DNA from: Maribacter litopenaei
Lineage (GTDB): Bacteria > Bacteroidota > Bacteroidia > Flavobacteriales > Flavobacteriaceae
Length of the DNA: 64,000 nt
NCBI RefSeq assembly: GCF_025244665.1
Contig: NZ_CP104205.1
Span: forward strand, 2,415,001 to 2,479,000
Reading direction: 5' to 3'
A program made the translations under genes and the position numbers. This document shows positions 2,004 through 62,813 of the stretch, in pieces. Under the pieces are notes generated by a model, which worked only from the letters and a program-made list of their open reading frames with translations, had not been told where the DNA came from and did not search any database. Each line of letters opens with the position of its first letter. The stretch's first letter is position 1.

Positions 2004-4024
2004 ATGAAAACAATGACTACCTATTTTAAACCTTTGCTACTGCTTCCGGTTTTGGCTTTTACTATTTCCTGTAGTGAGGAGGAAAATGAAGAACCCATGG
2101 TGATGGATTCCTCAACCATCGTGGACATTGCCCAGGATGAAGAAGCACTGACCTCGTTGGTTGCTGCCTTGACCACAGCGGATATTTCCGAAGCAACCGA
2201 CCTAGTTGGTACATTAAATTCCGACGATCCTTTTACCGTATTTGCCCCAACAAACGATGCTTTCATATCACTTTTGGCGCAATTAGATGGATTTGATTCA
2301 CTAGAAGATTTTGATACGGATGAAGAACGAGCCATTCTTGCAAAAATTCTGACCTATCACGTGGTGGCAGGAACTGCGGCCGCTTCTACGGATTTAACTG
2401 ATGGTATGACCGTATCAACCGTTCAAGGGGAGGATGTGACCATAAGTTTGGATGGGGGCGTATTTTTAGATGATGCTACAGATACGAATGCCGAAGTAAT
2501 TATTCCGGACGTTATGGCAAGTAACGGCATTGTGCATGTAATAGACAAAGTTTTATTGCCGCAGGAGATTATTGACGCATTAAATTCTGGTGAAATGGAA
2601 AATGAAAGTGGCACCCTGGTTGATATCGTGGTAGATACAGAAGCGCTTTCCATTCGGAAGCTGCGGTAATTAAAGCAGATTTGGTAGCTACATTAAATTC
2701 TGATGGGCCCTTTACAGTTTTTGCACCTACAGATGATGCATTTGTGGCCCTATTGGATTTACTTGGGGATGATTATAATAGTTTGGATGACTTCGACACT
2801 ATGGAAGAAATGTCCCTATTAAAAGATATCTTATTATTTCATGTAATAACGTCGGAGGTAAAATCTACCGATTTATCGGCTGGAGAAGTACCAACCGCAC
2901 TGCCAAATAATAGTATCGAAATTATATCCTCCGGAGATATATTTGTAATAGGGGATGCCTCTAGTACTGATGCAAATATTACAGGAGTTGACATCATGGC
3001 TTCCAATGGTGTTGCACATACCATAGATAAAGTTTTATTACCTCAAAGTGCCATTGATTTTGTAACACAGCTACAAATGAAGACCATAGTGGAAACCGCA
3101 GTGGACACAGATGATTTAAGCTTATTGGTTGATGCCTTGATTCAAGCGGATGCAGGTTTGGTGGAAACCTTGAACGGTAATGGTCCTTTCACGGTTTTTG
3201 CCCCTACAAATACCGCCTTTGCCGCATTGTTAGATACCTTAGGTGATGACTATAACAGTCTATCCGATTTTGATACGGAGGAGGAAAAAGACCTTTTAGT
3301 CACTATTCTAACTTATCACGTAGTTGCAGGAACAGCCGCGTTCTCCACAAATCTTTCAGATGGTCAGGAAATCGAGACTTTTCAAGGTGAGAATGTAACT
3401 GTAATCATAAAGGACGGGACCGTTCATATATCGGATGCAACTGATGAAAACGCTACTGTAGTGATTCCCGATGTGGAAGCTTCCAATGGAGTAGTTCACG
3501 TAATTGATAAAGTCTTATTGCCACAAGCAGCTTTAGATGCCTTGACTCCGCCTACTCCAAATATTGTTGAAGCCGCCCAAGCTACCGAAAGCTTGAGTGC
3601 TCCGGTATCTGCATTGATACAGTCTGACGCCGGTTTGGTTACTACCTTAAGTGGTGAAGGCCCTTTTACGGTATTCGCGCCAACAAACGAAGCCTTTACC
3701 AACTTCTTGAACGACTTGGGACCTAACTACAATAGTCTATCCGACTTCGATACGGAAGAGGAAAAGACCCTATTGGCCAAATTACTTACATATCATGTTG
3801 TATCCGGAGCAGCCGTTGCTTCCACCGACTTATCGGATCATCAGGAAATCGCAACTGTACAAGGAGAATCCCTTTTCGCCATTTTAAGTCACGGCGTCCA
3901 GATTAGGGACAAATCCCATGTAGATGCCAATGTGACCACACCGGATGTGATGACTAGTAACGGTATTGTTCATATAATAGACAAAGTACTTTTACCGCAG
4001 GAAATTATTGATGCACTACATTAA
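2004..4024 (+). CDS. Lipoprotein with four fasciclin (FAS1) domains; one frameshift near 2655
   Basis: The N-terminus is a lipoprotein signal ending in FTISC, followed by an acidic tether (SEEENEEP), so the protein is probably anchored in the outer membrane. Four FAS1 domains follow. Each has the H1 motif DPFTVFAPT or GPFTVFAPT and ends in the H2-type motif NGIVHVIDKVLLPQ or a close variant. FAS1 domains mediate adhesion or protein-protein contacts; no ligand can be named here. The first domain ends in a frameshift: the called ATTCGGAAGC becomes ATTCTGGAAGC, restoring the residues LSILEAAVIKADLVATL, which align with the other repeats. The repaired length is 673 residues. Adjacent repeats are similar but clearly diverged, so the duplication is old. 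A terminator follows at 4046-4075. Confidence 0.88.
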
Positions 4025-4045
4025 ATTATTGGAAACCCAAGTTAT

Positions 4046-4075
4046 AAAAACCTCCTCCCACATGGGGAGGTTTTT
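4046..4075 (+). terminator. Terminator of the fasciclin gene
   Basis: AAAAACCTCC pairs with GGAGGTTTTT across a ten-base loop and runs into a T tract, 21 bases after the stop codon. Confidence 0.8.
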
Positions 4076-4216
4076 CTATTGAATTTTAACAAACATCATT
4101 TAATCTACGTTTAGCATACAAGTTAGAACCCTTTACAACTAACTTTTTTTTAATCGAAGTACAATTAACAAATTTACATCCCCAAAACTTACCAAACCAA
4201 ACCTTAATCAATGGCA

Positions 4217-4246
4217 AAAGCCTCTACTAAAATTGTAGAGGCTTTT
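4217..4246 (-). terminator. Terminator of yidC
   Basis: AAAAGCCTCTA pairs with TAGAGGCTTTT around an eight-base loop. It lies 23 bases downstream of the yidC stop on the minus strand and carries T runs on both sides, so it could work in both directions. Confidence 0.7.
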
Positions 4247-4269
4247 CATTTTGTATTGTTTCAAAAGGT

Positions 4270-6125
4270 TTATTTCTTTTTTTGAGCTTCGGCCTGTTCC
4301 ATCATTTCTCTCATCTTTCGCTGAAACTTATTTTCCTTTTTTGGTTTCTTTTTGTTCTCCTGTATTTGTGCATGAATCTTGTCATTATCCAGGATGAAAT
4401 TCTTGATAACAAGCATAATTCCAATGGTTATCAAATTTGAAACAAAGTAATACAAACTTAAACCACTCGCATAGTTATTAAAGAAAAACAACATCATAAA
4501 TGGCATTAAGTACATAATGAATTTCATGTTGGGCATGCCAGGTTGTGTTGGCATATTCTGTCCCGTAGTCATCATCATATAAAAGAAAATCGCCACCGAA
4601 GCCAAAATAGGGAAAAAGGCTCACGTGGTCTCCATAAAACGGAATGGAAAAGCCTTCAGGAAACTGGTATATAGTATCAAAGGAAGACAAATCATCCGCC
4701 CATAAAAATGATTTTTGTCGCAACGCAAAGGATGTTGGGAAAAACATAAACAATGCATAGAAAATAGGCATTTGCAAGAATGCGGGTACACATCCACTCA
4801 TAGGGCTTACGCCGGCCTTACCATACAATTTCATGGTTTCCTGTTGCTTTTTCATGGCATTGTCCTTGTACTTTTCGTTCAATTCCGCAATTTACTGGTT
4901 TTAGAACTTTCATTTTCGCCTGTGACAAGTAGGACTTATAGGTCACCGGAGACATAGCCAGTCTTACCAAAATTGTCATAATGATGATGGCAATACCATA
5001 TGGAAAGTACGTACTTAACAATGAGTAGAACGGGGTAAATACGTATCTATTTATCCATCCAAAAATTCCCCAACCAAATGGTATGGAATCCACCAAATCC
5101 AAATCCTCATATTGGGAAAGTACCTCTAAATCTGTAGGGCCATAATACAAATACATGTTCTTGGTAATTTCGCCCCCTTTTACCTCCAAAGGTAAAACAG
5201 ACCCATAATTTTTAGTAAACCCAAAGGTCCTACTTTCTTCCTTCACCAGATCTTGGGATTTTAACTCTCCAGATTGGAAGGGCTCGTCGGCGCCTAAAAT
5301 CGAACTGAAAAAGTGCTGCCTGTAAGATATCCATTTAATGTCCTCCTCGGTTTCGTCATCATCACCACCAGCTGATAGTTTACTAAGTTTTCCATCTTCA
5401 TGATGATACGTCAAGCGGGTATATCTGTTTTCGTATTCAATACTCTTGGAGTGTCTTATGCCCTTCATCTTCCAATCGAAGGTTACTGGCTTACTACTGT
5501 TTAATACCCTATCCAATCCTTGGATCCGCACTGTAAAATCCACCAAATATTCATTGGGTTTCATTTCATATCGATATTCCAAAAATTGATTATTGGAAGT
5601 TTTGGCTTTCATAGAAAGTACCTGATTCTCCCCGGATTTTGTTAAAGAAGGTTCAAAATAAAGATCTTTTGTATTTAAGACACGGTTATCAGAAGTGGAA
5701 AAATCAATAGAATATGCAGAATTACCGTCCTTCACCAAATAAACCGGAACTGAATCATAGGTAACAAAATTCTTCATTTTAGCTTCCACAACATGACCTC
5801 CCTTGTTGCTTATTTCCAAATAAAGAACATCGTTCTCCAAAACGGTGGTTCCCTCTTTTGGGGTTGTAAATCCAAATGCACCTATTTGATTTTTATATCC
5901 GGCAACTGCGGTAGAGTCGTTTAAATCAACGGAAGGTGTATCGTCCACAACAATATCTTCAGTTGATTGTTCTTGTGCAGCTGCAGCATCAATTTGTTCC
6001 TGCTTAGCCTTTTGGGCCTCAAGTTCTTCGGGAGTAGGCTTGTTTTGATAGAACATGAAAATCAAAATGCCAAAAATCAAGACAAAACCGATAATAGACT
6101 TTACATCTAATTTCTTCTCTTCCAT
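4270..6125 (-). CDS. yidC: Membrane protein insertase YidC; two frameshifts
   Basis: YidC inserts proteins into the inner membrane. The protein starts [19 protein letters not shown], a first membrane helix, followed by a periplasmic domain of about 300 residues and the conserved helical core ([55 protein letters not shown]). The C-terminal tail is Lys-rich. Two single-base shifts break the frame. Near 4893 the called CCAGTAAATT should be CCAGAAATT ([12 protein letters not shown]). Near 4612 an extra base lies within GTGAGCCTTTTTCCCT, which does not contain the common error motif. After repair the length is 617 residues, normal for Bacteroidota. YidC is essential, so real inactivation is implausible. 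It lies immediately downstream of pyrG on the same strand. Confidence 0.93.
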
Positions 6126-6190
6126 TTAATTATAATAAGTATGGTACTAGTTTGGTTTACAGTGAGCAAATATATGCCCATTTACGTAGT

Positions 6191-7842
<1,652 letters not shown>

Positions 7843-10097: not shown

Positions 10098-12319
10098 CTA
10101 TTCCAATTGCTTTATATACATATTATCATAGCCCATGATATACGAGGCCTTATTGAAATATCCTGAAGAAATGTCCTTCTCATAGTCAAACTTACTTCCA
10201 CTGTATTGCGTTTCCCCTATAAACTTGGAAACATCCAATAAATCGTTCCTATAGGCCAATTTAAGTAGTAGATCGAATGTTACATCAAAACCTCTCACGG
10301 CAAACCTATCCGGTACATCTCCAAATCTTGCCTTGTACCTTCTTTCGAAGGAGTCTGAGGGAGCCTCCCTGTAAACCGACGGATACGTAAACCTGAGGTT
10401 GGATAGGTGGGTACTAGAAATAACGTCGTTATCAAAGGCGTTATTCTTGTCCGTGGTAAACATTCTAACTTGAATCTTTTCGGCTTTTGGATCCTCTATA
10501 TCCAAAACGGAGTTATGAAAAGAATTCAAAATGGACACTACACTGGAAATTAATTTGAAATTATCGGATTCTACAAAAACCCAGTTCTCGGTATCCTCTG
10601 ACAGCTGAAGTTCCAATTTATCTCTATTGATACCAATATTCTCTTCTTCCTCCTTGACTGCAAGTATTTTAGCGAAAGGGAATTGGCTTAAGATAGAATC
10701 CTTAACAGCTCCATTTTTTGCATCGGCAATAATGATAATATTTTGTTCCTCGCGTTTTTCCAAAACATATTTTAGCACGTGTTCCCGCAAGGTTTCTTCG
10801 GGTGTGTATGAGAAAAATACGTTTCCTAAACTTATATCGCTCTTTGCCGGTACAGGTGCTATAACAGGCAAATTATAGCTTGCTGCTTGTGTAGATGCCT
10901 CTTTTAGGGACAATACATCCAAGGGCCCAAAAATAGCGTTGAAAGATCCTAAATTTTCCCTTTGCAGGATTTCCTTGGTTCTTTGAAGGTCCAAACGATT
11001 ATCAAATGTTTTGACATCTACTGAAACCCCCAAGGATTTTATGGAGTCCAAAGCCACTAAAGCTCCGAATACAAACCAAGGCTATATTTTAGACTGTTTC
11101 TATTTTCTATGGTCCATTCAACTGTTTCAGCATCATTAAGGTCTAATTTATCCAACCTAAAGGGCAGAAGAAACATAATCTTGGGTTTATTTTCCACATT
11201 AATGCTGTCCATTAAATTGATTTTGTCCAACACCAAGGAGTTCCTTACTTCAAAATCACCCACTTGATTTTTGGGCAATTTAAGGACCATACCTGCTTTT
11301 AGCCCATCCTTAAGTTCAGGGTTAAGCTTAATCAATTCTTCCCAGCCCATACCAAACTTACGTGTTAATCGAAACTCGTTTTGCTTGGGTTTTACCTCAT
11401 AAAAAATATAGTTGTCCGTATTAATTTCTCCAGGATCCAATTTCCTCTCGGGCAGACGTATTACCATACCTTCCTTTAGCCCGCCCCGCTCGGTAATCTC
11501 CGGGTTCAATCGTACCACCTCATCGGACTTAACTCCAAATTCCCTTTCAAGCCTATAAAAATTCATTTTAGCCGGAACCGTATAAGAGGTATACAATTCG
11601 GTCTCCTGATTTTCCACGGTTGAACCAGCTCTTTTTGGGAGTAACAATTCATACCCTTCCTGCAAATAATTTGTGGTTTTGGAAAGTGAAGGGTTCAACA
11701 CCAACATACTATCAATGGTAATACCATATTTATTGGCAATACTCCAGCGCGTCTCTTTAGGCGCAACTATATATTTTTCAAAAGCATCAATGTCGATTGC
11801 ACCCTGAATTTCCTCTTGGGGCTTATATTTAGGGATTCTAATGACCATTTTCCGATCAAGTTGAGAAGAGTAAAGCTCTTTGTTAAACTTCTTTATCTCT
11901 TCTTCGGTAACTCCATATTGTTTTGAAATGCCATATAGGGTTTCTCTCTTTTTCACTTTATGTTCTACAAAGCCAATTGGTTCCCGTTTAACAACGGAGT
12001 CGTTCATTATCCTATTGACCAATTCCGCTACCTCCCCATCTACTTGATTGTTATTTTCTTTTCTACTTTCATTATCCTTTATCACATTTCCATTAGCACT
12101 AGGAATCACCAATATGGTGTTGATACTCAAGGATTCTCCTTTTTTAAGTTCTTTGTTATATTTAAGAATGTCCTCTTGGGAGACACCATATTTTTTGGCA
12201 ATGCTATACAACGTCTCATTCTGCTTTACTGAATGGGTCGTAAATTTTTGTCCTAAGGCCTTACAACCCAAAAACATACTAAAGCAAACCGTTAGAAAAA
12301 CCTTGACAAATCGTTTCAT
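10098..12319 (-). CDS. Five LysM repeats fused to a periplasmic-binding-protein-like domain; one frameshift
   Basis: A signal peptide or lipoprotein signal (MKRFVKVFLTVCFSMFLGC) is followed by five LysM repeats with the pattern VKQNETLYSIAKKYGVS, VKKRETLYGISKQYGVT, VAPKETRWSIANKYGIT, VPAKMNFYRLEREFGVK and VKPKQNEFRLTRKFGMG. The C-terminal half resembles a type 1 periplasmic-binding fold (FNAIFGPLDVLSLKEASTQA, LPVIAPVPAKS). LysM binds peptidoglycan; the second domain may bind a ligand, so a cell-wall sensor or scaffold is a reasonable guess. The frame breaks near 11066: TATTCGGAGC should be TATTCTGGAGC (GLYSGALVALDS). The repaired length is 740 residues. It starts two bases after the guaA stop, indicating an operon. 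Confidence 0.82.
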
Positions 12320-12321
12320 AT

Positions 12322-13853
12322 TTATTCCCATTCTATGGTCGCCGGCGGTTTAGAGCTTATATCATACACTACCCTATTTACGCCAGGCACTTTATTTATA
12401 ATATCATTCGAGGTTTTTTGCAAAAACTCATAGGGTAAATTTACCCAATCTGCGGTCATACCGTCAGTACTTTCAACCGCTCTTAGGGCAACGCACTTTT
12501 CATAAGTGCGTTCATCTCCCATGACCCCTACACTATTTACGGGCAAAAGCATTGCTCCGGCCTGCCAAACCTGGTCATATAGTCCCCAATCTTTTAATCC
12601 TTGAATAAAAATATGATCCACCTCCTGTAAAATGGCTACTTTTTCCCTCGTGATGTCTCCTAAAATACGAATGGCCGGACCAGATCCGGGGAAAGGATGC
12701 CTTCCTAAAAGATTTGGTTCCAATCCCATACTTTTACCAACCCTTCTAACCTCATCCTTAAAAAGCATTTTCAAAGGCTCCACCACTTTCAGCTTCATAA
12801 AGTCCGGTAACCCCCCAACATTATGATGACTTTTTATAGTTGCCGAAGGCCCACCTGTTGCGGAAACCGATTCAATGACATCCGGATAAATGGTTCCTTG
12901 AGCCAACCACTTTGCATTTTCAACCTTATGTGCCTCGTCATCAAAAACTTCTATAAAAACCCTACCAATGGTCTTTCGCTTCTTTTCAGGGTCACTTTCC
13001 CCCTCCAGTGCATCCAAAAAACGTGCCGAAGCATCCACTCCTTTTACGTTTAGCCCCATATCCTTGTACTGATGCAGCACATCATCAAATTCGTTTTTTC
13101 TGAGCAAACCGTTATTTACAAAAATACAATGCAGATTATCGCCTATGGCTTTATTTAAGAGTACCGCCGCTACTGATGAATCCACACCTCCGGAAAGTCC
13201 CGAATGACTTTCTCATCACCAATTTTTGCCTTTAGTTCGGCCACGGTCGTCTCCACAAACGCATCTCGGTGTCCATGTTTGTTCTACTTTAGCAATATGT
13301 ACTAAAAAATTTTCCAAGATTTGTTTTCCATCCGTTGAATGATACACTACGGGTGGAATTGTATGCCATAAGTATCCTCCCCTATAAACTTAAACGCAGC
13401 ATTTTCAACATCGTATGTGCTGGCCAATAAAATTGAGTTATCGGGAAGATTTTTAATCGTATCGGCATGGCTCATCCAAACTTGGCTGCCCACCTCAATA
13501 TCATTTAAAAATGGGTCTTCTTCATATAGTTTGGCCAACTTGGCCCTCCCATACTCCCGGGTATTTGATTTTTCAACATTACCCCCATTAAAATGGGCTA
13601 AATACTGGGCACCATAACAAACTCCCGTAAGAGGTTTTTTTCCTTTTATATTGCTAAGGTCCGGGTGCGGAGCATCCCCAGCCCTTACCGAATGAGGCGA
13701 ACCCGAAAGAATTACAGCCTTGTATTCGGATAAATCACCTGGTAACTTATTGTAAGGTTTTATTTCACAGAAAATATTTAACTCCCTAACCCTTCCGGCG
13801 ATGAGTTGTGTGTATTGGGAACCAAAATCGAGAATCAGAACATTATTTTGCAT
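12322..13853 (-). CDS. guaA: GMP synthase GuaA; three frameshifts
   Basis: GMP synthase converts XMP to GMP with glutamine and ATP. The start is [20 protein letters not shown]; the amidotransferase Cys sits in [12 protein letters not shown], and GIQFHP carries the catalytic His. The ATP pyrophosphatase domain has [12 protein letters not shown], and the C-terminus ends KPPATIEWE. Three lesions break the gene: near 13351 (CACCCGTAGTG for CACCCAGAAGTG), near 13266 (ACCGAGATGC for ACCAGATGC) and near 13201 (ATTCGGGACTT for ATTCTGGGACTT, giving [11 protein letters not shown]). After repair it has 510 residues, the family norm. A start five codons upstream at 13868 is possible but lies in front of the promoter box. 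Confidence 0.95.
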
Positions 13854-13856
13854 GGG

Positions 13857-13864
13857 CAAAAATA
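13857..13864 (-). promoter_or_regulatory. -7 promoter box of guaA (TATTTTTG)
   Basis: An exact TAnnTTTG match on the minus strand that ends only three bases before the conserved start ATG of guaA. With the usual distance from this box to the transcription start, the mRNA would be leaderless or nearly so. Confidence 0.5.
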
Positions 13865-13927
13865 GCAATTTGAAGTTTTTTGAAAACTATCTTTTGGTAT
13901 ATTTATCATAATTTAAAAACATTTGTT

Positions 13928-15584: not shown

Positions 15585-16955
15585 TTATTCCATACTTTTT
15601 AAAATTTCCTCAATATCATTTTTTGTCGTATCGGGATTAATAAAGCAAAATCTGGATACCGTTTCATGGCCATTGGGAGATTTCCATTTTGTAGGGGTAA
15701 CCAGCGCAAAACCGGATTCATGGTTTTTATAGGTCCAATTCCTATAATCCTCCGCAGACCAACCAATCCTACGAAATAGCACGCAGGATAGACTTGGTTC
15801 CCTTACCAGTTCCGTCAATGGGTTTTTCTCAATGAGCTCCCCAGCCATTTGGGCCAGTTGTATCCCCTGTTCCACGGCCCATTCATATTTTTCAGTCCCG
15901 TGTGTCGCCAAAGAAAACCATAATGGAAGACCCCTAAGCCTTCGGTCAATTGAATTTGATAGTCTGAAGGGTTGAACCCAAAGGCCCCTTCATCCTTGAA
16001 TATTTCCAAATAACTTCCTTCTTGGGCATGTGCTTCTTTTGCCTCCTCAGGATTTTTGTAAATAACCGCACCACAATCGTAAGGGGAAAACAACCATTTG
16101 TGTGGATCTATGGTAACACTATCAGCCTTTTCTATCCCTTTGAAAAGATGCCTAACGGTTTTTGAAGCCAACGCACCCCCGCCATAGGCCGCATCCACAT
16201 GAAACCAAATTTTATGGGTAATGCAGAAATCCGCTATCCCATCAAGATCATCAATAATACCCGCATTCGTTGTCCCCCCGGTCCCCACTATGGCAAAGAC
16301 CCTTTCTTGTTCAGTTGTTGAAAGATTTCCGTAGAACCTGCCCAATGCCTGTTGAGTCATTGCGTCTTCCGACTCAACTAATAATACATCGGCATCTATC
16401 ACTTTTGCCATGGCCTTAATGGATGAGTGTGCCCCAATAGATGTAATTAACAATCCTTTTTGATTTATGTTTTTGGGATCTCTTCTCCATTTTTCCCTTG
16501 CCGTTACTATAGCCGATAAATTTGCGGCAGTTCCTCCACTAGTAAACACACCAAATGCAGGTTCAGGCATGCCAGTCAAGGAAACCAACCATTTCATGGC
16601 CTCATTTTCGCAGAATATGCCTCCAGCACCCTCCATCCAATAGGCCCCATGGATACTGGATGCCGAAGTCACCAAATCAAACAGTATAGCCGCCCTAGTG
16701 GGAGCGGCAGGCACAAAAGCCAAATGCCGTGGATGATCAATAGGAACCGTTGCCTTTACCAATACCTGACGAAATAGCTCAAAGGCCTTCTCGCCTCCAA
16801 TTCGAGAATCAGTTACCGTTTCACCAACCAATTTCCGAAGTTCGGCCTCGGATTTTGGCTTACCTAACTCCTGGATTGGTCTGTGTAATTCTATTTATGG
16901 CAAACTTGACCACGTCCAAGGTCATCTCGACCATGTCAATATCAATATCGTGCAT
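15585..16955 (-). CDS. PLP-dependent group II decarboxylase (glutamate/aromatic amino acid type); two frameshifts
   Basis: The protein carries the group II decarboxylase features: substrate loop PRHLAFVPAAPT, SGGTAANLSAI, FHVDAAYGGGAL with the PLP-contacting Asp, and DPHKWLFSPYDCG with the Schiff-base Lys. Its family decarboxylates amino acids such as glutamate, aspartate, tyrosine or DOPA; the exact substrate is not readable. The true start is MHDIDIDMVEM at 16955. One shift near 16873 (CCAGGAGTT for CCAGAGTT, NPELGKPKSEAEL) and one near 15943 (ACCGAAGG for ACCAGAAGG, LTRRLRGLPLWFSLATHGT) break it. The repaired length is 456 residues. It lies 70 bases downstream of bshC. Confidence 0.85.
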
Positions 16956-17025: not shown

Positions 17026-18632
17026 TCAATCGATTGTAATCACCATAAATTTTAAATCCAAAGGATTCAAATGTTTCAACAGCATAGGAATCAATTCTCC
17101 CCCATATTCAATATATAGTTCAGAAAAATTTAACTGCCGTTCCTGTAATGAGTGGCCAGGAAATAACTGGTTTTGAATTTCGGTCAACCGAACCACGTGG
17201 TCTTCCAATTTTCTTTTTTGTGCTTTTAGCAGTCTTTTTTCAAGATTTTCCGAGACCTTTCTTTTGTTTTACCTCTTGGGCCTCAACCGCTCCTAGAAAA
17301 GACTTGTCCGTTTGTTGGGCAAGTTCGTACAGTCCCTTAAACTGGTCTTCCAAAAACTTTTTTTGCGGTGAAAAATCAATATCAATATTAGAAACCTCTC
17401 GTATCTTTTTATTGATCAAGCTATGTTGTTTCAAAAAAATATCCTCAAGACTAATGTTTAGCTTCTCCAACTTTTCATTCTGCTTTTCGGTAATTATCAA
17501 AACCGAATTACGCAGTAACAAGATTGGGAATGTAACCTTCATGGCGTCGAAAGAAGATTTTAACTGTAACCAATATGCCAATTCCCCTCCTCCACCTATA
17601 TAGCATAGATTAGGCAAAATTACTTCCTGATATAGGGGCCTTGCCACTACATTTGGTGAAAATCGCTCAGGATACTGCTTCAATTCCTCTAGCAATTCCT
17701 GTTTTGTAAATGATATTTGGGTGTCGTTTACAAAGTAATGACCATCCCTTTCCACAATTCGTTCCCTGACACCATCCTTTAGATAGAAGTAGTTGATTTC
17801 CCTTGGATTTACTTGGATACCATAATCAGAATTTAGTTGCTGTATTTCCTCAATTTTATTCGATACGGATTGAAAAGAAACTTGATCGAAAATGTCCTTT
17901 TGAACATAGGGAACTAGAAGTTCTTTTAAGCTTCGGTCGTCCCCATCAACAATAACCAGTCCTTCGTCTTTGAAAAGTTCGTTGGCCAAAAATCGGGTTG
18001 CCTTTGTCAAATTGTTATGTGTCAGGTATGCTTCGGTGAAAAGCTTCTTTAAGTAGGTGGCGTTTTTACTGCCTCCAATGGTATTGGAAAAAATCCCGAA
18101 CACTTCGTCCAATCCATCCGTGGAAAGATGACCAACTGCTCCTGATGCATTTTTATTCCATTGTATCTTTTTTCCCTTAAAACTGAAGTAGTTAATTTCC
18201 TCAAAATCATGGTCTTCCGTAGCCATCCAATAGACTGGAACAAAACTGCAATTGCTATATTTCTCCTTTAAAACTTTGGCCAAGTTTATAGTAGATACAA
18301 TTTTGTACAAAAAATATAGGGATCCAGTAAATAAATTTAGTTGGTGCCCCGTAGTTACGGTAAAAGTATCTTTAGAATCAAGGGCCTGAATGTTTTCAGC
18401 AGTGACATCGGATACGTCCGAGACCTTCATATTGGTTTTTTAAAGACTTGACCAAAGTGTGTCTATTGGCCATGGAAAAACTTTCCTTTTTCTCCTTTAT
18501 TTGTGCTTCAAAATTTTCCAGTTTGGGAAATCGATTGTATAGGGTTTCAAGTGCTTCTTTTTCCTCTATGTAATCACAGATCAAATCAGAAAAGTACCCT
18601 GTTTTTCGAAAAGGCAAACAATCAATATCCAT
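17026..18632 (-). CDS. bshC: Bacillithiol biosynthesis cysteine ligase BshC; two frameshifts
   Basis: BshC attaches cysteine to glucosaminyl malate in the last step of bacillithiol synthesis. The protein begins MDIDCLPFRKTGYFSDLICD and contains TVTTGHQLNLFTGSLYFLYK, VYWMATEDHDFEEINYF, SPNVVARPLYQEVILPNL and CYIGGGGELAYWLQLK, in the order expected for BshC. A C-terminal coiled coil follows (LEKRLLKAQKRK). Frame breaks near 18420 (GGTCTCGGACG for GGTCTGGACG) and near 17251 (GGTCTCGGAAAA for GGTCTGGAAAA) are both the same type of one-base insertion. The repaired length is 534 residues. Its presence implies this organism uses bacillithiol as a redox thiol. Confidence 0.92.
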
Positions 18633-21560: not shown

Positions 21561-22861
21561 TTACACCGGCTCGCCATACAAATCAAAATCGGCGGCTTCG
21601 GTTATTTTGATAGTTTCGAATTCACCTTGTTTTAGGTAGTGTTTTGTCGCATCCACTAAAACTTCATTGTCCACATCCGGAGAATCGAACTCGGTTCTTC
21701 CTACAAAGTAATTACCTTCTTTACGATCGATAATACATCGAAAGGTCTGCCCAATTTTTTCCTGATTCAGTTCCCATGAAATTTGGGATTGAATTTCCAT
21801 AATAGCATTGGCGCGTTCCTGCTTAACTTCTTCCGGTACATCATCTACTAGATTGTAGGCATGGGTGTTTTCCTCATGACTATAGGTAAAACAACCCAAC
21901 CTTTCAAACCGCATCTCTTCTACCCATGACTTTAAAGTCTCAAAATCGGCTTCTGTCTCACCAGGATAACCTACTATAAGTGTTGTACGTATGGTCATTC
22001 CGGGAACCTCCTTCCTAAAATTCTTTAGTAATTGTGTAGTTTTCTCTTTTGTGGTTCCCCTGCGCATACTCTTTAGAATACTGTCTGATATATGTTGTAA
22101 TGGGATATCCAAATAATTGCACACTTTAGGTTCTTCTCTCATAACCTGTAAAACATCCATGGGAAAACCTGTTGGAAAAGCATAATGCAAACGAATCCAC
22201 TCAATACCTTCTACCTTGACCAATGCCCTCAAAAGTTCGGCCAAGTTTCTTTTTTTATAAAGGTCTAGCCCATAATACGTCAAGTCTTGGGCTATAAGAA
22301 TTAATTCCTTGACTCCTTTGCTTGCCAATTTTTCAGCCTCCAATACCAATTCCTCAATAGGCGTACTTTTATGCTTACCTCGCATCAAGGGTATAGCACA
22401 AAAGGAACAGGGCCTATCACAACCCTCGGCAATTTTTAAGTATGCATAATTTTTAGGTGTGGTTGTCAGTCTTTCACCTATAAGTTCATGTTTGTAATCT
22501 GCACCTAGCGCCTTTAAAAGATTGGGAAGCTCGCTGGTACCAAAATATTCGTCTACATTTGGAATTTCTTTCTGTAAATCGGTTTATAACGTTCGCTCAA
22601 ACAGCCTGTAACAAAGACTTTGTCCACTACTCCGTCTTCCTTTTTTTGTACATACTCCAAGATTGTATTAACGCTTTCCTCTTTGGCATTGGCGATAAAC
22701 CCACAGGTGTTGATCACCACAACGTTTCCTTCCTCTTCATGAACTACATCCTTGTCATTGGCACGTAACTGCCCCATCAGCACTTCGGAGTCATATACAT
22801 TTTTGCTACAACCCAAGGTAACCACGTTGATTTTATTCTTTTTAAGCGTCTTTGTTCGCAT
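21561..22861 (-). CDS. rimO: Ribosomal protein S12 methylthiotransferase RimO; one frameshift near 22580
   Basis: RimO is a radical SAM enzyme that methylthiolates an Asp of ribosomal protein S12. The N-terminal MTTase domain has INVVTLGCSKNVYDSEVLMG, VVINTCGFIANAKEES and VTGCLSERY with three Fe-S cysteines. The radical SAM motif CDRPCSFCAIP lies at about 22390-22430, and a C-terminal TRAM-like domain ends DFDLYGEPV. The frame breaks at AAACCGATTTAC; AAACCAGATTTAC gives YKPDLQKEIPNVDEYFG. The repaired length is 433 residues. The gene has its own promoter box at 22897-22904. Confidence 0.94.
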
Positions 22862-24138: not shown

Positions 24139-25829
24139 TTATTGGTAATCTTTAGGCATTTTCCTTATGGGGAATGTATTTTCAAAAGTCTTTCCCATTC
24201 GTAACAAATGTGCTTCGGAAAAAGGCTCCCCAATAAAGGTTAAGCTAATTGGCTCACCGCTAGGTTTATAGCCCATGGGTATGGTCAAAGCAGGATACTT
24301 TGCCACTGCGGCATACCCTGCATGATAATTGTTGATGGACAATATAGCATCGAGGTCATGGGCATCCATGGCAGTATCAAAAAATGTTCTTCCACATTCC
24401 TCCAAATCCAATTTTATATGATCCAACTCCCCAGTGGTCGTTGAGTCAGCTATAATCCCTTCAAACAGTGCTTGTCCATAAGGGATTCTAATCAATGAGT
24501 CGGATTTATTGAAATCGACAATATCGGCAATGGATTTTACACTAACTAAATTAGGGTTTGAGTGAATCTCTAGATAAGTTGGGAGGTCATGCTTCATATC
24601 TATATTCAAAAGTGTAATAAAATTCTCCAAATGAATATCAATGGGAGGGGAAAATTCTACTATATGCGCTCCAGCTTCTTTCAGCGCCTCTACCGTTTCT
24701 TTATAGATACTATCCCTTTCCATTAAGGGTACCATGGCACCAAGGCGCATACTGGAAATATCCTCTCGGACTAAGACCTGATGATAGAATCCCGAGAAAA
24801 TTCTTCTTTCACGGATTTGGAATCCTCGGCATCATAGCCCAGCATAGCCGATAATAGGATAGCATTGTCGTTTACATTTTTTGTCATAGGATCGGGCGTA
24901 TCCAAAGTACTTGAAATTGGAACGATTCCTGATCGGCTCAAAAGACCAATTGTTGGCTTCAACCCCACCACGGAATTTTGGCTACTTGGAGAAAGTATGG
25001 AACCGGAAGTTTCGGTTCCTACGGCCGCAACTGCATAGTTTGCCGCTACCGAGGTTCCGCTTCCCGAACTGGAACCCCCAGTTTCAAAAATCCTTCTTCC
25101 GTACGGATTTAAGGTCTGCCCTCCAACCGCGCTATAGCCAACAGGACATCCACTACATAAAAAGTAGGCCCACTCACTGAGGTTTACCTTCCCTAAGATA
25201 AGGGCTCCATTTTCCTTTAAACGATGAACGATAAACGAATCATCTACCTCATTTTCCATAAGGGCTATGCTCCCGGCAGTGGTCTTCATCCCTGAAGTAT
25301 TGATATTGTCCTTTAAGAGTATCGGCATTCCAAAAATAGGGTGTCTTACTTCCGGTAAGTTTCCTTTTTTCCTTTGCTCATCCAGATCTCTAGCTTCTGC
25401 TACAACCTCTTTATTTAAGGCAATGACGGTATTTAAGGTAGTTTCATTGTTCAACTCGTATTTATAAATTCGGTAGAGATAAAATAAGACCAACGCTTCA
25501 TAGGATAACCGACCTTCCTCGATATGATTGCTTATGGTATAGATATCCTGTTCTAAAATTAAAGGTTTCAGGGACTCATATTGGGCCTCATCCATTTTGG
25601 AAACTTCATCATATAAGGGTAGAAACACCTCATTTTTATCCAACACTTTGGATTGGATGAGCTTGTATCTCATACGGGAAATCTCATAGTCCGCATTGGC
25701 GGCTATTTCCAAAGAATCGTTATACGGCTCCCAAAGCACTACATCTTTTTTTGGAGCTGACTCGTTTTTACAGGATAAAAGAAGTCCAACTAAAAGGGGT
25801 ATAATTAATTTCTTCATAGCATTTTTCAA
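24139..25829 (-). CDS. Amidase-signature family lipoprotein; frame disrupted near 24767-24794
   Basis: A lipoprotein signal (KKLIIPLLVGLLLSC) precedes an amidase-signature hydrolase. The catalytic triad regions are visible: Lys in GMPILLKDNINTSGMK, cis-Ser in GGSSSGSGTSVAANYA, and nucleophile Ser in GTETSGSILSPSSQN. The frame is lost between FS and SSMRLGAM. Two sites of the common type lie there: TCTCGGGATT near 24794 and CCGAGAGGAT near 24767. Removing one base from each gives FSGILSSGLSPEDISSMRLG and 562 residues; a single deletion at the first site would also restore frame. The ATGA overlap with the DUF2911 gene supports the start at 25829. Substrate unknown. Confidence 0.87.
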
Positions 25830-26707
25830 TTATTTTCCAGCTTGTCCTCCCATGTTTTAATACTCTTTTGATTGAGACGAACAAACTCGTCCTTATCTTC
25901 CATGGCCGCTAATTTCAAGGATTTGTTAGCAGATTGTATGGCTGCATCATAGTACCCCAAATCACCTTCTACCAAAGACTTGACCCTATAAAAATAATAG
26001 GTTTCTCCGCCTTTTTCCAAGGCCTTTTCCAAATAAGAAATCGCCTCAGCAAGATGAATCCCTTCCTCTTGGTAATACCGGGCGACCTCGTAATACGTTT
26101 GGGCGGTTGGATTTTCCTTCAACGTCCTTTCTATTTTGGTTCGCATAATTTCATAGGTATCAAACGTGATTAGAACATCCGCTTTTGTTCTCGCCCACTG
26201 GATGACCATTTTTACGGAATCATGCCCAATTTCATCAAATGAGATGAGTAAATTTTCTTGAAAAACCAAAGTAGTAATAGGTCGGATTCGTACCCTCAAC
26301 ACATCTTCTTTTGGGTCATAGTTATTCCTTCCGTCCCCCCAATGGGTAATGTTCATATGAAATACCAAATCCCAGTATTCTGAATAAGGAAATACATACA
26401 ATGCATACTGACCTTTAGGGAGGCTTTGGCCGTTCACTTTAACATCGGTATCAAAAGTAATTTTTGTGGATTCATTGGCGCCAACACGCCAAATACGTCC
26501 ATACGGCACCAATGCAGGTTGACCATCGGCCTGAAAACCAAAAATTTTACGCCCTCGTGCCGCAGGCCTAGAATATTCCACGATAATTTTTGATAGGCCA
26601 ATTTCCTGTTCAATAACAGAATATGGGCTGGCTTTGGGATGTATTATCTGAGACCACGATGTTATGGCGCAATGGAAAATAAGTACTAGTAGCCCAATTT
26701 TATTCAA
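25826..26707 (-). CDS. DUF2911 protein with C-terminal TPR-like helices
   Basis: The 293-residue product begins with a signal peptide (MNKIGLLVLIFHCAITSWS). The DUF2911 domain covers about residues 25-165, with KIIVEYSRPAARGRKIFG, LVPYGRIWRVGANESTKITF and LPKGQYALYVFP. The C-terminal third is helical with tetratricopeptide-like spacing (QTYYEVARYYQEEGIHLAEA, AISYLEKALEKGGETYYFY). DUF2911 proteins are common in Bacteroidota and have no proven function. It overlaps the amidase start by four bases and the ftsY stop by four bases, so ftsY, this gene and the amidase form a tight operon. Confidence 0.85.
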   Translation of the reverse strand: MNKIGLLVLIFHCAITSWSQIIHPKASPYSVIEQEIGLSKIIVEYSRPAARGRKIFGFQADGQPALVPYGRIWRVGANESTKITFDTDVKVNGQSLPKGQYALYVFPYSEYWDLVFHMNITHWGDGRNNYDPKEDVLRVRIRPITTLVFQENLLISFDEIGHDSVKMVIQWARTKADVLITFDTYEIMRTKIERTLKENPTAQTYYEVARYYQEEGIHLAEAISYLEKALEKGGETYYFYRVKSLVEGDLGYYDAAIQSANKSLKLAAMEDKDEFVRLNQKSIKTWEDKLENN

Positions 26708-51397: not shown

Positions 51398-53662
51398 GTG
51401 AAGAAGTTAAAAGACCTATTACTGAGAATAAAACCTCCTATCCTAAGGTACCTACTTTTGGGAATAGTAGGCCTTGCTTTTATTTTCCTACTCTTTTTAG
51501 GCAGCATATATGCAGGGGTATGGGGAAAGATACCAAGTAAAAAAGATCTTTCTAATTTTCAGTATCAAGTGGCATCGGAAGTATTCACTTCGGATAGTGT
51601 CCTTATCGGAAAATATTACTTAAATGACAGACAGCCCATCACCTTTGAAGAGTTTCCGAACATCTTCTACAAGCTTTGATTTCTATCGAGGATGAACGAT
51701 TCTACGAACATTCCGGCGTGGACTATCCCAGTCTTCTTAGAGTAGGTCTAAAGACCATACTTATGGGAGATGAATCATCGGGTGGTGGAAGCACCATTAG
51801 CCAGCAATTGGCAAAAAATCTATACCCCGTAAAAGATAGGAAGCCAACTAATATCGTAATCGATAAAATCAAGGAAATGTTTATCGCTGGCAGACTTGAA
51901 GATATTTACGATAAAAACCAAATACTCACTCATTACCTTAATACAGTTTCCTTTGGTGATAACACCTTTGGGATTGAAAGTGCCTCTTTGAAATTCTTTA
52001 ATACTAGAACTAAAGATCTTTCTGTGGAAGAGGCGGCAACATTGGTGGGTATGTTGAAGGCGACCTATGGCTACAACCCAAGGATATTTCCGAAAAGAGT
52101 AAGGCAAGAAGAAATCCGGTGTTGTATACTATGGAGAATAATGGATTCCTATCCACAACCGAATCCGACTCACTTCAAAAATCCGAGCTCGATCTTGATT
52201 ATAGGGATTATGATTATAGTTCGGGACTCGCCCCATATTTTAGGGAGGAAGTGCGTAAGCAATTACTGGAATGGACAAAAAAACAAAATGAGCAGGGCCA
52301 GGCATACAATATTTATACTTCGCGCCTCAAGGTTTACACTACCTTGAATTATAAAATGCAACAACTGGCGGAGCAAAGCATGGTGGAGCACATGAGTAGA
52401 TTACAAAAAGACTTTGAAAAAAGCTATGGAAAAAATGCCCCATGGATTGTAAACAAAAAATTGATCAAAACGATAGCTAGAAGAAGTCCGGCGTATCAAA
52501 ACCTTAAAAAACAGGGATTATCCGACGATGAAGTATTTGATAGTCTAAGTCGTACCAAAAGAAAAATGGTACTAAAGAATTGGGAAGAAGATACGGAAAA
52601 GGAGGTAAGTATTCTTGATAGCATTCAACACTATATGAAGTTTTTGAACACCGGCTCCATTTCCATGAATCCAAAAACAGGTGAAGTATTGACCTGGATT
52701 GGTGGCGTCGACTTTAAGCAATTCAAGTATGACCATATTTCCCAAAGCAAACGCCAAGTAGGTTCTACGTTTAAGCCAATCGTTTACACCGCAGCTTTAG
52801 AACAGGGAATTGAACCCTGTACCTATTTTTCAGCCGAGGAAGTTGCATATGAAAATTTGGAAGGCTGGTCACCGAGCAATTCAGGGGACAAGGATGAGGC
52901 CTACCTCAATTATTCCATGGAAGAAGGACTTAGTAAATCCGTTAATACGATAGCGGTGAAGGTTATGGAAAAAACAGGTATTGATAACGTGCTTGCTCAA
53001 GCAAATAATATGGGAATCGAAGAAAAACTACCGAGGGAACCCTCGATTGCCCTAGGTACCGGTGAAATAAAATTGATCGAATTGGCAAAGGCGTATACTA
53101 GCTATTTAAACGACGGTAGGTCTGTTGAACCATTTTTGATAAAAGGTATTACCGCCCGTAATGACTCCCTATTGGCAAAATTCGAAACCAAAAAGAGTGA
53201 AAATGCCGCGTTCTCTACGGAAAATGGACAGATTATGCTGGAAATGATGACATCGACCATAAATTCAGGGACAGCCTCTCGAATCCGTTCCACCTATAAA
53301 CTATCTAACGATATAGCCGGGAAGACTGGAACTACCCAAAATAACAAGGATGCTTGGTTTGTGGCACTTTCCCCTAATTTACTTCATGTTACGTGGGTCG
53401 GGTTGGACAATCATGAAATCGGATTCAAAAATACCACCATTGGTCAAGGAGCGAACGCGGCCTTGCCCATGTATGCGCTATTCTTACAGAAACTGAACAA
53501 GGAAAAAGGGTTCAACTATATTACCCAAGCAAAATTTCCACCTCCCAGTGACTATGTTCAAGAAATTCGGATTGCGAGCCTGTAAAACGTGATGGGTTCT
53601 TTAAAAGGCTTTTCAAAAACCCAAATAAGAAAAAGACCCGGAAATTTAGAAGTCAAGATTAA
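51398..53662 (+). CDS. Penicillin-binding protein 1A (transglycosylase/transpeptidase); three frameshifts
   Basis: This class A PBP polymerises and crosslinks peptidoglycan. It starts at a GTG with KKLKDLLLRIKPPILRY and a membrane helix (LLLGIVGLAFIFLLFLGSIY). The transglycosylase motif is SIEDERFYEHSGVDYPSLL, with GGGSTISQQLAKNLYP. The transpeptidase has GSTFKPIVYTAALEQG (SxxK), GLSKSVNTIAVK (SxN) and AGKTGTTQNNKDAW (KTG). Lesions near 51658 (TTTCCGAACATC for TTTCCAGAACATC), near 52092 (TTTCCGAAAAG for TTTCCAGAAAAG) and near 53568 (ATTCGGATTGC for ATTCTGGATTGC) break it; the true C-terminus ends KKTRKFRSQD. The repaired length is 755 residues. Confidence 0.94.
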
Positions 53663-57634: not shown

Positions 57635-59847
57635 ATGTCGTTTAATTCTACCAAAAAAACAACTCTTAGCTTTCTTTCATTTATCATTTCGTTTTGCGCG
57701 TTTGCCCAAGAACAGACCAAACAAATCAATGTCAAGTTCATTACCGAGGAAATCACTCCGGATGGCTTGTTGGACGAACCCATTTGGGCAATTGCCGGTA
57801 TGGCTGAAGATTTTTGGGAGTATTTTCCCTTGGATTCAGTTCAGGCCAAAAAGCAATCCCAAATTAAAATTCTATACGACGAAAAGAACTTATATATTGG
57901 AATAAAAGCATATTCAAGTGGAAAAAACTACGCAACTCAATCACTGCAACGTGATTTTAGAGGAAGCGGAAGTGATAGCTTTACGCTTGTTTTTGATACC
58001 TTCAACGATGGCACTAACGCTTTTTCATTTGGTATTAATCCCTATGGTGTACGCCGTGAAGGCCTCATTGCAAATGGAGGTGCCGACCAAAGTGACTTTA
58101 ATCTATCCTGGGACGTAAAATGGAAAGGTAATGCTAAAATTCATGATGATTACTTTACTGCGGAAATGGTCATTCCCCTCACCTCTTTAAAGTTTGAAGA
58201 AGGCGCTACCAAATGGCGGTTCAATTCCTATCGTATCGAAACACAATCCAACGAACGCAGTACTTGGATCAGAATACCTCAAAATCAACTTATCTATAAT
58301 CTTGCCTTTATGGGCGAACTCCTTTTTGAGAAACCTCTTGGCAAGTCTAGAACGCCTTTCGCTATAATACCCTATGTAAATGGTATTAGCGCCAAGGACT
58401 TTGATAATGGTGAAAACCTGGATAATTTTAAAGTTGGTGCAGATGCCAAAGTTTCTATTGGGAATAGCTTAAATCCGGATCTTACAATAAATCCGGACTT
58501 TTCGACCGTAGAAGTGGATAATTTTATCACCAATCTCACGCGCTTCGAAATTGCACTGCCGGAGCGTCGTCAATTTTTCATAGACAACAATGATCTTTTT
58601 GCGAGTTTTGGAAACGGTTTTGACTTTAGTCCTTTTTTCTCAAGACGTATTGGTATCGCGAGGGACACCGTTGGGAATACCATAGAAAATAATATTCTTG
58701 GTGGCGTACGGCTTAGTGGAAAGCTGACCAACGATTTGAGGGTTGGGGTATTGAATATTCAGACCGCGGAAGATTTAGATAATAGAATTCCATCAAATAA
58801 TAACACGATGTTGGCATTGCAGCAGCGTGTTTTCTCACGATCCAACATAGGTGTTTTTTTTATAAATAAGGAGTCTTTCAAGGATTATGATTTTGTAGAA
58901 AGGGAAGACGAATACAATCGAGTTTTAGGTGTTGACTATAACTTGGCCTCTAAGGATAACACATGGAATGGATCGTTCATAACCCATAAATCCTTTCAAC
59001 CGGATGATAATGTGGGGAACTTTGCCTCTAGTGCCCTAATTCGATATAATACAAGAAAATTAAATGTATTCGCCAAAGGTACTTTTATTGATGAGGACTT
59101 TCGTTCGGATTTAGGCTTTGTGCGAAGAACCGATCTGTTTAAGACGCTCTTTAGCCTGGAACGGGTATTCGGCCAAGAAAAGGAATTGTCCAGAACCATA
59201 CGCTTCGGTCATTTACAAATATACGATGGAGCCCTAGCATGGATTTTAAAAATACAGATTATGATCTTCAATACAGTTATGAAATTCAATTCAATAATCA
59301 ATCACAGGCACGAGTAGAGTACACGAATACTTTCACGTTCTTGTTCGATTCTTTTGATCCGACACGGACCGAGGGTGCTATACCTCTCCCAGCTAACAAA
59401 AATTATCATTATAATAGTGTTCAGGCAGGATTTCAATCCGATCAGCGAAAACTTTTTTCATATGCCATCCAGTCCACTGTGGGACGCTTTTTTAATGGAA
59501 ATCGATTTTCAATGGAAGGTTCTATGGCCATGAGGTTTCAACCTAAAGCATCGATTTCCCTCCAATTTAATTATGATCAAATAGATTTACCCGAACCCTA
59601 TTCAAGTGCCAATATCTCGGTTAATAAGCCCACGGATGGACCTTACCTTTAGCAAATCCATTTTTTGGTCACTTTGATTCAATACAGTAATCAGCGGGAT
59701 AACTTGGGCATTAATTCTAGATTGCAGTGGCGATTTGCACCGCTCTCCGATTTGTTTATAGTGTATAATGATAATTATGCCGTAAGCCAATTCGAGCCAA
59801 AATATAGATCCATAAATTTAAAGCTATCTTATTGGTTAAATATTTAG
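57635..59847 (+). CDS. Second DUF5916 protein (paralogue); three frameshifts
   Basis: The layout equals the upstream gene: signal peptide (TTLSFLSFIISFCAFA), CBM9-like domain (DGLLDEPIWAIAGMAEDFWE), DUF5916 region (LTINPDFSTVEVDNFITNLT) and C-terminus SINLKLSYWLNI, nearly identical to the paralogue. Three lesions occur. Near 59231 TACGATGGAGC needs one more base (YDWSPSMDF). Near 59618 AATATCTCGGTTAAT should be AATATCTGGTTAAT (NIWLISPRMDLTFSK). Near 59668 TTTTTTGGTCAC should be TTTTTTGGGTCAC (IFWVTLIQYSNQ). Only the middle one lies at TCTGG. The repaired length is 737 residues. Tandem duplication of the upstream gene is likely. Confidence 0.83.
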
Positions 59848-59848
59848 T

Positions 59849-60652: not shown

Positions 60653-60684
60653 GTATATTTGGTTCCCAAGGAAAATTCTTCATT

Positions 60685-61959
60685 ATGGACAACCCTGTCG
60701 ATCAACCTTTGATTGTTAATGATACCGTTGTATTTGGCCTTTTGGCACTAGCCCTTGGCTTTATATTTTATACCTCCAATCTAAAAACTGGTTTACGGCA
60801 AAAATTCTATTCAATTGTACCTGCAGTGCTTATGTGTTATTTGATACCTGCGCTTATGGCAAGTGCCGGTTTGATATCGGATGATACTTCAGGCCTTTAC
60901 TTTATGGCCAGTAGGTATTTGTTACCAGCAGCGCTGGTTTTGATGACACTGAGTATTGACCTTAAGGCAATCAGTAATTTGGGTTCGAAAGCAATCATCA
61001 TGTTTTTAACGGGTAGTTTTGGTATTATCATCGGGGATTCACTGGCCATACTTTTGGTGTCCATATTTTCTCCAGAAACAGTTGGCGGTAACGATTTTGA
61101 TGCGGTTTGGAGAGGACTGGCTACCATCGCCGGAAGTTGGATCGGTGGCGGGGCCAATCAGGCGGCCATGCTCGAAATTTTTAAATACAACCCAGAGAAA
61201 TATGGGGGAATGGTACTTATCGATATCGTTGTTGCTAATATTTGGATGGCCGTGATACTATTGGGCGTGGGCAAAACGAAAAGAATCGATAAATGGTTAA
61301 AGGCCGATACCTCTGCCATTGAAACCTTAAAAGTAAAGGTAACCGAGTTTACGGAGAAAATTACCCGGGTGCCAACGCTCCAAGATTATATGATCATGCT
61401 TTGTTTGGCCTTCACAGCCGTAGGAATTTCCCACTTTTTTGGAGATCATATCAGCGAATTCCTAATATCAAATTTTGAAGCCGTCAGTGACAAGAAAAGT
61501 TTTCTTTCCTTTTTGGGGTCTCGGTTTCTTTTGGATGGTGGTACTATCTACTTGTGCGGGTATAGCTATGTCATTCACAAAGGCGAAGAATTATGAGGGT
61601 GCCGGGGCAAGTAAAATTGGTGGAATGTTCATTTATATTCGGTGGCTACCATTGGTATGAAAATGGACTTGGGCAAGGTTTTGGAGAATCCAGGTCTTAT
61701 TGCCATTGGTTTTGTTTGGATCAGCGTACATGCATTGCTACTCATTCTAGTAGCCAAAATCATTAAGGCGCCATATTTCTTTTTGGCCGTGGGTAGCCAA
61801 GCCAATGTGGGCGGTGCCGCTTCCGCGCCGGTAGTCGCAGCAGAATTTCATCCCTCCTTGACTTCGGTAGGTGTTCTATTGGCCGTATTGGGGTATGTTG
61901 TAGGTACTGCAGGTGCCTTGCTATGTGCTTACTTAATGGAAGTAGCCTCCAGCTTATAG
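60685..61959 (+). CDS. DUF819 family membrane permease; two frameshifts
   Basis: The protein has about ten membrane helices. The region SWIGGGANQAAMLEIFKYNP and the C-terminal VGSQANVGGAASAPVVAAEF are signatures of the DUF819 (YjcL-like) family, whose substrates are unknown. The frame breaks near 61521 (GGGTCTCGGTTTC for GGGTCTGGTTTC, GSGFFWMVVLSTCAGIA) and near 61640 (ATATTCGGTGGC for ATATTCTGGTGGC, FIYILVATIGMKMDLGKV). The repaired length is 424 residues. It follows the HAD gene by 32 bases. Confidence 0.86.
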
Positions 61960-62117
61960 TATTTAATTTTTCAATTGCATTTTCTTTAAAAATTTAATGA
62001 TATTTGCCCCCTGAATGAAATGAGTTAATAAACAATTGCAGCTGTTGTCCTATTTCCAATTGACTGCGATTTACACATTAGTTCCTCGAAATAAAAAAAG
62101 TTTTAAGAATTTGATCT

Positions 62118-62813
62118 ATGAAAAAAGTTGTTGTTATCCTGTCTATACTTTTTATGGTTTCTTGCGGAAGCGATAAGGAAGATAACCTAATCGTAAATGG
62201 AAAGGTTAGAGGGTTAAAAAAAGGAACACTCTATTTACAGCATTTGACAGATACCACTTTGGTCTCGGTGGACTCCCTAGAAATTGATGGCGACGGCACG
62301 TTTAGTTTATCGACTTTCCTGGAAAGCCCGAAATATATTATCTGTATTTAAATAAAAAGGACAATAACGACATCAATGACCGAATTACTTTTTTTGCTGA
62401 ACCAGGTACCATCACTATTAATTCAGACTGGAATACCTTTGATACCACGGCGGAAATTACAGGTTCACCTTCCCAGGTAATGCTAGAGGAATATCAAAAA
62501 GCATTGTCCAATATTAATTTAAGGAATATGGAGATTATGCTAAAGGCCTCACAATCCGAAGAACCTTTGGACCAAGCCGCAATAGACTCTTTGGAACAGG
62601 TAAGTGTAAAGAATACAAAGAGAGGGTATGCCTATTCCATTAATTTTGCCCTGAACAACAAGGATTCGTACATTGCCCCTTATATCGCAACTAAGGAAAT
62701 TCCAGATGCCAATATAAAATATCCGGATTCTATATATAATGTTCTTTCTCCGTGATGTAGCCAATTCCAAGTATGGAAAGGAACTGAAAAAACTGTTGGA
62801 GAACAAGCAATAA
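62118..62813 (+). CDS. DUF4369-like lipoprotein; two frameshifts
   Basis: A lipoprotein signal (KKVVVILSILFMVSC) precedes a DUF4369-like domain (NGKVRGLKKGTLYLQHLTDT, VDSLEIDGDGTFSLS). This domain is normally the N-terminal part of a thioredoxin-like Bacteroidota protein, but here no thioredoxin follows. Lesions near 62330 (AGCCCGAAATATAT for AGCCCAGAAATATAT, SPEIYYLYLNKKD) and near 62752 (TCTCCGTGATGTAG for TCTCCAGATGTAG, SPDVANSKYGKELK) hide the true C-terminus, KKLLENKQ at 62813. The repaired length is 231 residues. Confidence 0.75.

Follow-up and report, generated by a model that had tools for sequence, protein, structure and literature searches.

The question raised by this stretch of the Maribacter litopenaei chromosome (64,000 bases, contig NZ_CP104205.1, positions 2,415,001 to 2,479,000; hereafter the window, with positions counted from its first base unless genome coordinates are given) is why so many of its genes, pyrG, guaA and yidC among them, are broken in the deposited sequence. 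A first-pass annotation had read the breaks as nanopore base-calling errors falling on a single pentamer, CCAGA (TCTGG on the opposite strand). Comparison with relatives confirms that the lesions fall on CCAGA, and reveals that the earlier observation had caught only part of the effect, as about 92 CCAGA sites are missing from the window. We consider it highly probable that these are consensus errors, caused by a DNA modification that confuses the nanopore base-caller; that the sequencing was by nanopore, that modification is the cause, and that the mark is 5-methylcytosine (m5C) are all three points that we infer. The chromosome is a single contig of 3,864,532 bases, with a completeness of 81.68% compared with 97-100% in five other single-contig members of the genus. 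Its HSP90-family protein has matches of 88-96% identity in 34 of 35 genomes of the genus, and the named Maribacter hits in a second collection reach 91%, as suits a marine Maribacter.

Lesions in the window converge on one pentamer

The window was aligned as DNA to the corresponding regions of five relatives, which cover 51-63 kb of it at 74-80% identity, and lesions were scored without any repair of the sequence, a frameshift being kept if it was coding and supported by at least three of the five. There are 39 such frameshifts, spread over 24 open reading frames (ORFs) of the relatives, and four in-frame stops, one of which (4893) adjoins the frameshift at 4896; this count is lower than the 45 lesions in 27 genes that had been claimed. 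The frameshift counts are those of the window, the genome-wide evidence being the pentamer depletion described below. Gap counting with no coding filter gave 109 clusters, dominated by intergenic indels and with CCAGA in at least half of the relatives' contexts in 12, and was replaced by the coding-only count.

At the lesions CCAGA/TCTGG is the commonest pentamer in the relatives, carried by at least two of them at 14/39 lesions, compared with 1.9% of random positions, and by at least one at 20/39, compared with 5.9% (binomial tails about 1e-14). In the window itself, a string one edit from CCAGA/TCTGG lies no more than 6 bases away in 31 of the 39 frameshifts, where 4.7 would be expected from random positions. 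CCGAGA is found just beyond this radius at 18415 and 51184, giving a strict total of 33/39, and the looser forms proposed in the first-pass annotation, present at 13350, 19021 and 62752, bring it to 36/39; two of the four stops (4893 and 29167) also carry distortion forms from its list. The concentration reported there, 42 of 45 lesions, is thus borne out in kind. No CCAGA-like form is present at the remaining three frameshifts, 4612, 24775 and 24802; the first adjoins runs of A and of G, and the other two, both in an amidase gene, are 27 bases apart.

The one-edit test scores CCAGA and CCGGA alike (31/39 each), being blind to the difference because CCGAGA is one edit from both, and the repair argument of the earlier annotation alone is therefore insufficient to fix the pentamer. 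CCAGA is chosen over CCGGA because of the lesion counts in the relatives, at least two of which carry CCGGA at 6/39 lesions against the 14/39 for CCAGA, and because CCAGA is depleted in the window, where CCGGA is not.

Depletion of CCAGA across the chromosome but not in relatives

The shortage of the motif in the window is as follows.

1-64000, no strand assigned: depletion of CCAGA/TCTGG, 30 sites compared with 121.6 expected from five relatives

By this yardstick CCAGA is the most depleted of the 512 pentamers. The eight intact sites whose coordinates had been given earlier are all real, none displaced by more than 2 bases, among the total of 30. In twenty other 20 kb stretches across the chromosome (400 kb), with two relatives as yardstick, CCAGA is again the most depleted pentamer (156 compared with 670 expected, ratio 0.23) and is depleted in every stretch, numbering 1-12 in each compared with 21-46 in 20 stretches of the two relatives. 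Measured against a third-order expectation, CCAGA stands at 0.41 here and at 1.04-1.30 in all nine sampled relatives of the genus. The anomaly, seen in 20/20 stretches and absent from 9/9 relatives, is strain-specific and genome-wide, and the association with CCAGA, checked elsewhere in the genome as pentamer depletion over 400 kb, holds beyond the window. If all the missing sites are errors, extrapolation gives, as an upper bound, about 5,000 wrong sites genome-wide and a consensus quality of about Q29.

Genes affected

Judged by the domains of the relatives' counterparts, five of the genes that had been named as damaged are indeed hit, namely those for YidC, CTP synthase, GMP synthase, a signal recognition particle (SRP)-type GTPase with the length of FtsY, and a penicillin-binding protein of class A. 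Genes with their approximate frameshift positions include the following.

4270-6125, minus strand: yidC, called in fragments; frameshifts at about 4612 (no CCAGA-like form) and 4896
6250-7827, minus strand: CTP synthase gene (pyrG); frameshift at about 6292
10098-12331, minus strand: LysM-domain protein; frameshift at about 11066
12322-13868, minus strand: GMP synthase gene (guaA); frameshifts at about 13201, 13267 and 13350
15585-16870, minus strand: pyridoxal-dependent decarboxylase; frameshifts at about 15943 and 16870
17240-18430, minus strand: bshC; frameshifts at about 17251 and 18415
21561-22861, minus strand: UPF0004/radical SAM/TRAM protein; frameshift at about 22580
24139-25829, minus strand: amidase; frameshifts at about 24775 and 24802, with a CCAGA-like form at neither
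26704-27621, minus strand: SRP-type GTPase (ftsY); frameshift at about 27608
32844-34203, minus strand: 2-oxoacid dehydrogenase acyltransferase (E2); frameshift at about 33528
34984-36465, plus strand: sodium/solute symporter; frameshifts at about 35394 and 35937
51398-53585, plus strand: class A penicillin-binding protein (PBP1A type); frameshifts at about 51658, 52092 and 53566
57635-59670, plus strand: second member of a tandem pair of large, similar genes (relative ORF of 750 amino acids, no NCBIfam match); frameshifts at about 59170, 59618 and 59670
60685-61959, plus strand: gene with a relative ORF of 424 amino acids, no NCBIfam match; frameshifts at about 61521 and 61640

The frameshifts and stops are present in the deposited sequence, and m5C is generally mutagenic, as would suit real decay, in which a mutational process or lost selection broke these genes in the living strain. 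Such decay is scarcely credible when pyrG, yidC and, three times, guaA are hit, when the lesions focus on one pentamer, and when all nine sampled relatives are normal.

Fate of individual CCAGA sites

At 32 places at least three of the five relatives carry CCAGA, and here the window has 2 sites intact, 23 substituted and 7 with indels. This indel rate of 22% is the highest of any pentamer with at least 12 such places, the overall rate being 0.4%. When three of the relatives (G030, G007 and G005) are taken in turn as the focal genome, CCAGA is intact at 10/16, 10/17 and 9/22 places with no indels; because some relatives recur in all of these comparisons, they do not count as independent.

A second test was made at gap-free coding sites with CCAGA in at least two relatives, reading whole codons and taking 12 control pentamers in the window. 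CCAGA is intact at 3/73 of these sites in the window, compared with 82/222 in three relatives. Where the motif-carrying relatives agree on the residue, losses that change it number 19/73, compared with 115/957 for the control pentamers and 20/222 for CCAGA in the relatives. Most of the losses are silent, 51/73 compared with 513/957 for the controls; an initial silent/replacement count had found just this majority, and the whole-codon count then showed both kinds to be in excess. The codon position of the middle base (0/41 intact at positions 1 and 2 compared with 38/111) was dropped as proof of coding-blind errors, since the motif can be lost silently there too. Taken together, CCAGA is the specific target of the deviations, its depletion is genome-wide, and there is an excess of frameshifts and of both residue-changing and silent substitutions.

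Depletion alone would look the same if a resident enzyme cut CCAGA and the site were truly rare, and CCAGA is a restriction-modification (R-M) target elsewhere (BspNCI and NEIS0771, see below). As silent losses are in excess, some real avoidance of CCAGA may contribute, and the silent losses may in part stem from it. As the sole cause, restriction avoidance is very unlikely. It yields no frameshifts, no excess of residue-changing losses and no new CCGAGA, which is the clearest new form in this genome (203 occurrences compared with a mean of 85 and a maximum of 116 in seven relatives). The excess of residue-changing losses and the frameshifts therefore point to errors.

Sequence context of the surviving sites

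Survival of CCAGA is lowest in CCAGAC (0.07) and CCCAGA (0.10) and highest in CCAGAT (0.46) and ACCAGA (0.42). Survivors thus favour T after the motif and A or T before it, in keeping with the earlier remark that intact sites stand mostly, not exclusively, before T. Over 210 survivors the position effect is strongest at +1 (chi2 110), followed by -1 (39) and +2 (22), and distant positions are mildly uneven (+5, 17.9; +13, 15.7; -13, 12.7; +8, 12.7; -14, 12.6). As regards a second half-site, such as a Type I bipartite target would have, no single distant position within 14 bases nears the effect of the adjacent bases, and depletion is near-complete for several flanks without one. Such dependence on the neighbours is more readily explained by base-caller context than by a longer target.

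Variation of survival with the flanking bases is as expected of base-caller errors, and would also suit a general weakness of nanopore calling or polishing at CCAGA, making modification unnecessary. Seven Listeria genomes assembled from Oxford Nanopore Technologies (ONT) reads only are, however, reported at Q47-Q60 (PMC10687267), a quality that should be out of reach if most CCAGA sites failed. A strain-specific cause is therefore needed, and we regard a general weakness as most improbable.

Precedents

Strain-specific pentamer errors (GCAGC or GCTGG) are described by Chiou et al. (2023) in Listeria ONT assemblies of Q26-Q32, and are reported to fall sharply after whole-genome amplification (PMC10687267). 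The Maribacter anomaly is like these in being strain-specific, in falling on one pentamer and in involving thousands of sites, its quality of about Q29, if all missing sites are errors, lying alongside the Q26-Q32 given there. It is unlike them in its motif and its many indels, and in that the cause is here read from the assembly alone. On the favoured reading, CCAGA (TCTGG) would carry a DNA modification in this strain, and a base-caller with no knowledge of that modification would leave consensus errors in a nanopore-dominated assembly. Literature searches, judged mostly by paper listings, found no paper in which CCAGA is described as a motif of nanopore errors. Artefacts of this kind are already known, and the motif here differs from the known cases.

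CCAGA has been assigned to a methyltransferase in Neisseria meningitidis, where NEIS0771 is listed in two methylome papers as a Type II m5C enzyme for this pentamer, under the names M.Nme15193ORF2725P and M.Nme12ORF2740P (PMC7973814, PMC7046676). Cleavage by MspJI is reported there to confirm CCAGA in serogroup W and to give CCAGR in serogroup Y, the latter ascribed to CCAGA and CCWGG enzymes. NEIS0771 shares the pentamer with our case and is listed as one m5C enzyme for an asymmetric site, although its host belongs to a different phylum from Maribacter. The same pentamer is the recognition site of BspNCI (Biopython enzyme table), on which a literature search by name found no paper.

Within the genus, the Maribacter halichondriae Hal144 genome, sequenced with ONT only (R9.4.1), is reported to have 173 pseudogenes, for the most part frameshifted, which were interpreted as a possible adaptation to its niche (PMC10942906); it may merit the same pentamer-depletion check.

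Candidate modifying enzymes

No beta-class methyltransferase (PF01555, the class of Type III Mod) is matched in the chromosome, by a profile that finds matches in 11 of 14 control genomes, and neither alpha-class (PF02086) nor MmeI-type (PF20473) methyltransferases were found there. The Type III Res domain PF19778 has no match in the chromosome, but none in the control genomes either, and DndC, of phosphorothioate modification, has none, its control matches in 5 of 14 genomes all falling below the cut-off. Gamma-class matches comprise two Type I HsdM and two proteins read by eye as PrmC-like and TrmN6-like. The Type I R-M loci are at 2,871,321-2,874,986 and 3,607,713-3,614,834 (genome coordinates, as for all loci in this section); in the first, HsdM is split into two calls and CCGTA stands close to the break, whereas none of the distorted forms is seen at the edge of an HsdS-like piece.

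The chromosome encodes three m5C methyltransferases. That at 3.68 Mb has plasmid relatives, 46-48% identical, which in two of three neighbourhoods lie near endonucleases of the Sau3AI/MutH or BglII/BstYI families, and these neighbours suggest a GATC-like target. The second, at 3.175 Mb, adjoins an EcoO109I-family endonuclease fragment (R-M locus 3,174,148-3,176,331), and so presumably has a GGNCC-like target; its gene is itself called split, with CCGAGA at the break. The third, at 1,952,124-1,953,629 (PF00145, 3.2e-88), has an N-terminal helix-turn-helix (HTH) and is followed by an HNH protein, the pair spanning 1,952,124-1,954,719. Among 36 genomes of the genus it has a full-length match in this one only, 24 others matching its catalytic part partially. 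By elimination this HTH-m5C methyltransferase is the best candidate, and we tentatively propose that, with its HNH neighbour, it may be the agent at CCAGA, at somewhat less than an even chance.

The catalytic part of the candidate is about 55% identical to methyltransferases from three plasmids, on each of which the neighbours are an AAA ATPase and an endonuclease of the LlaJI family. LlaJI itself is described as an R-M system with the asymmetric site GACGC and two m5C enzymes (PMC1459862), and such systems thus have in common with our case an asymmetric site and, on our reading, m5C. The Maribacter candidate differs from that two-enzyme arrangement in its HTH fusion and its HNH neighbour. A further relative of the candidate, with 61.8% identity over 88% of the searched part, is encoded in a phage record from human faeces (MT835668.1, 10056-11057).

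The mark could instead be 6-methyladenine (m6A) on the central A, a variant of the modification explanation in which the enzyme would lie outside the assembly, for example a Type III enzyme on a lost plasmid. At asymmetric sites, modification of a single strand is typical of Type III enzymes, and a change of the middle A to G is the commonest form of loss (CCGGA at 7/34 sites, and 5/19 of the residue-changing forms). CCGGA is, however, only slightly above the relatives' maximum genome-wide (1029 compared with 1009), the PF01555, PF02086 and PF20473 classes were not found in the chromosome and its gamma-class proteins are those named above, and the documented CCAGA enzyme is listed as m5C. We hold m6A to be possible, if unlikely. 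Rather less likely still is that the mark is a bulkier cytosine or adenine derivative, made either by the HTH-m5C methyltransferase and HNH protein, acting as a one-enzyme system on the asymmetric pentamer, or by some enzyme not yet recognised; such a derivative would account for the failure of most sites and for the abundance of indels.

Two other pentamers deviate in this genome. GATCC/GGATC is enriched 1.57-fold over the relatives, and GGACC/GGTCC is the second most depleted pentamer, at 0.51 of the relatives and 0.44 of expectation. GGACC was considered as a further error motif and dropped, since six of the nine sampled relatives also fall below 0.70 (0.56-0.67); its low count could reflect m5C deamination, or avoidance tied to the EcoO109I-like system.

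Weighing the explanation

Several observations weigh against consensus errors at an m5C-modified CCAGA. Frameshifts are common here, whereas the Listeria errors are reported to be nearly all mismatches, with 7-306 indels per genome (PMC10687267). With only one m5C enzyme, just one strand would be marked, and reads of the opposite strand would be clean. The candidate HTH-m5C methyltransferase is not linked to CCAGA by its sequence, and an Acinetobacter plasmid of 156 kb that carries a 55%-identical methyltransferase shows, over 96 kb, no avoidance of CCAGA (1.18). Most gap-free losses are, as noted, silent. Lastly, ACAGC/GCTGT is kept at 0/12 places where at least three relatives carry it, an intact rate below that of CCAGA, so that intact rate alone is a noisy measure; these losses are all substitutions, with no indels, and are probably ordinary divergence in small numbers.

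The alternatives fare worse. At least one result contradicts each of them, be it decay, avoidance as the sole cause or a general weakness of the base-caller. A strain-specific modification at CCAGA fits. The original reading of base-calling errors at this pentamer is supported by the position of the lesions, by the genome-wide depletion and by the normal relatives, the modification remaining the conjectural step.

Implications

A public finished genome appears to be wrong at up to about 5,000 occurrences of one motif, which fragments essential genes and probably lowers the completeness score. Anyone drawing annotations, core-gene trees or counts of pseudogenes from it would be misled. The finding is a quality artefact whose cause is probably biological. 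It also shows that an assembly, with no raw signal, is enough to bring out a candidate for a modified motif, through the depletion of a pentamer compared with relatives together with coding frameshifts. The same scan, applied to public single-technology genomes, could both flag bad assemblies and gather modification motifs.

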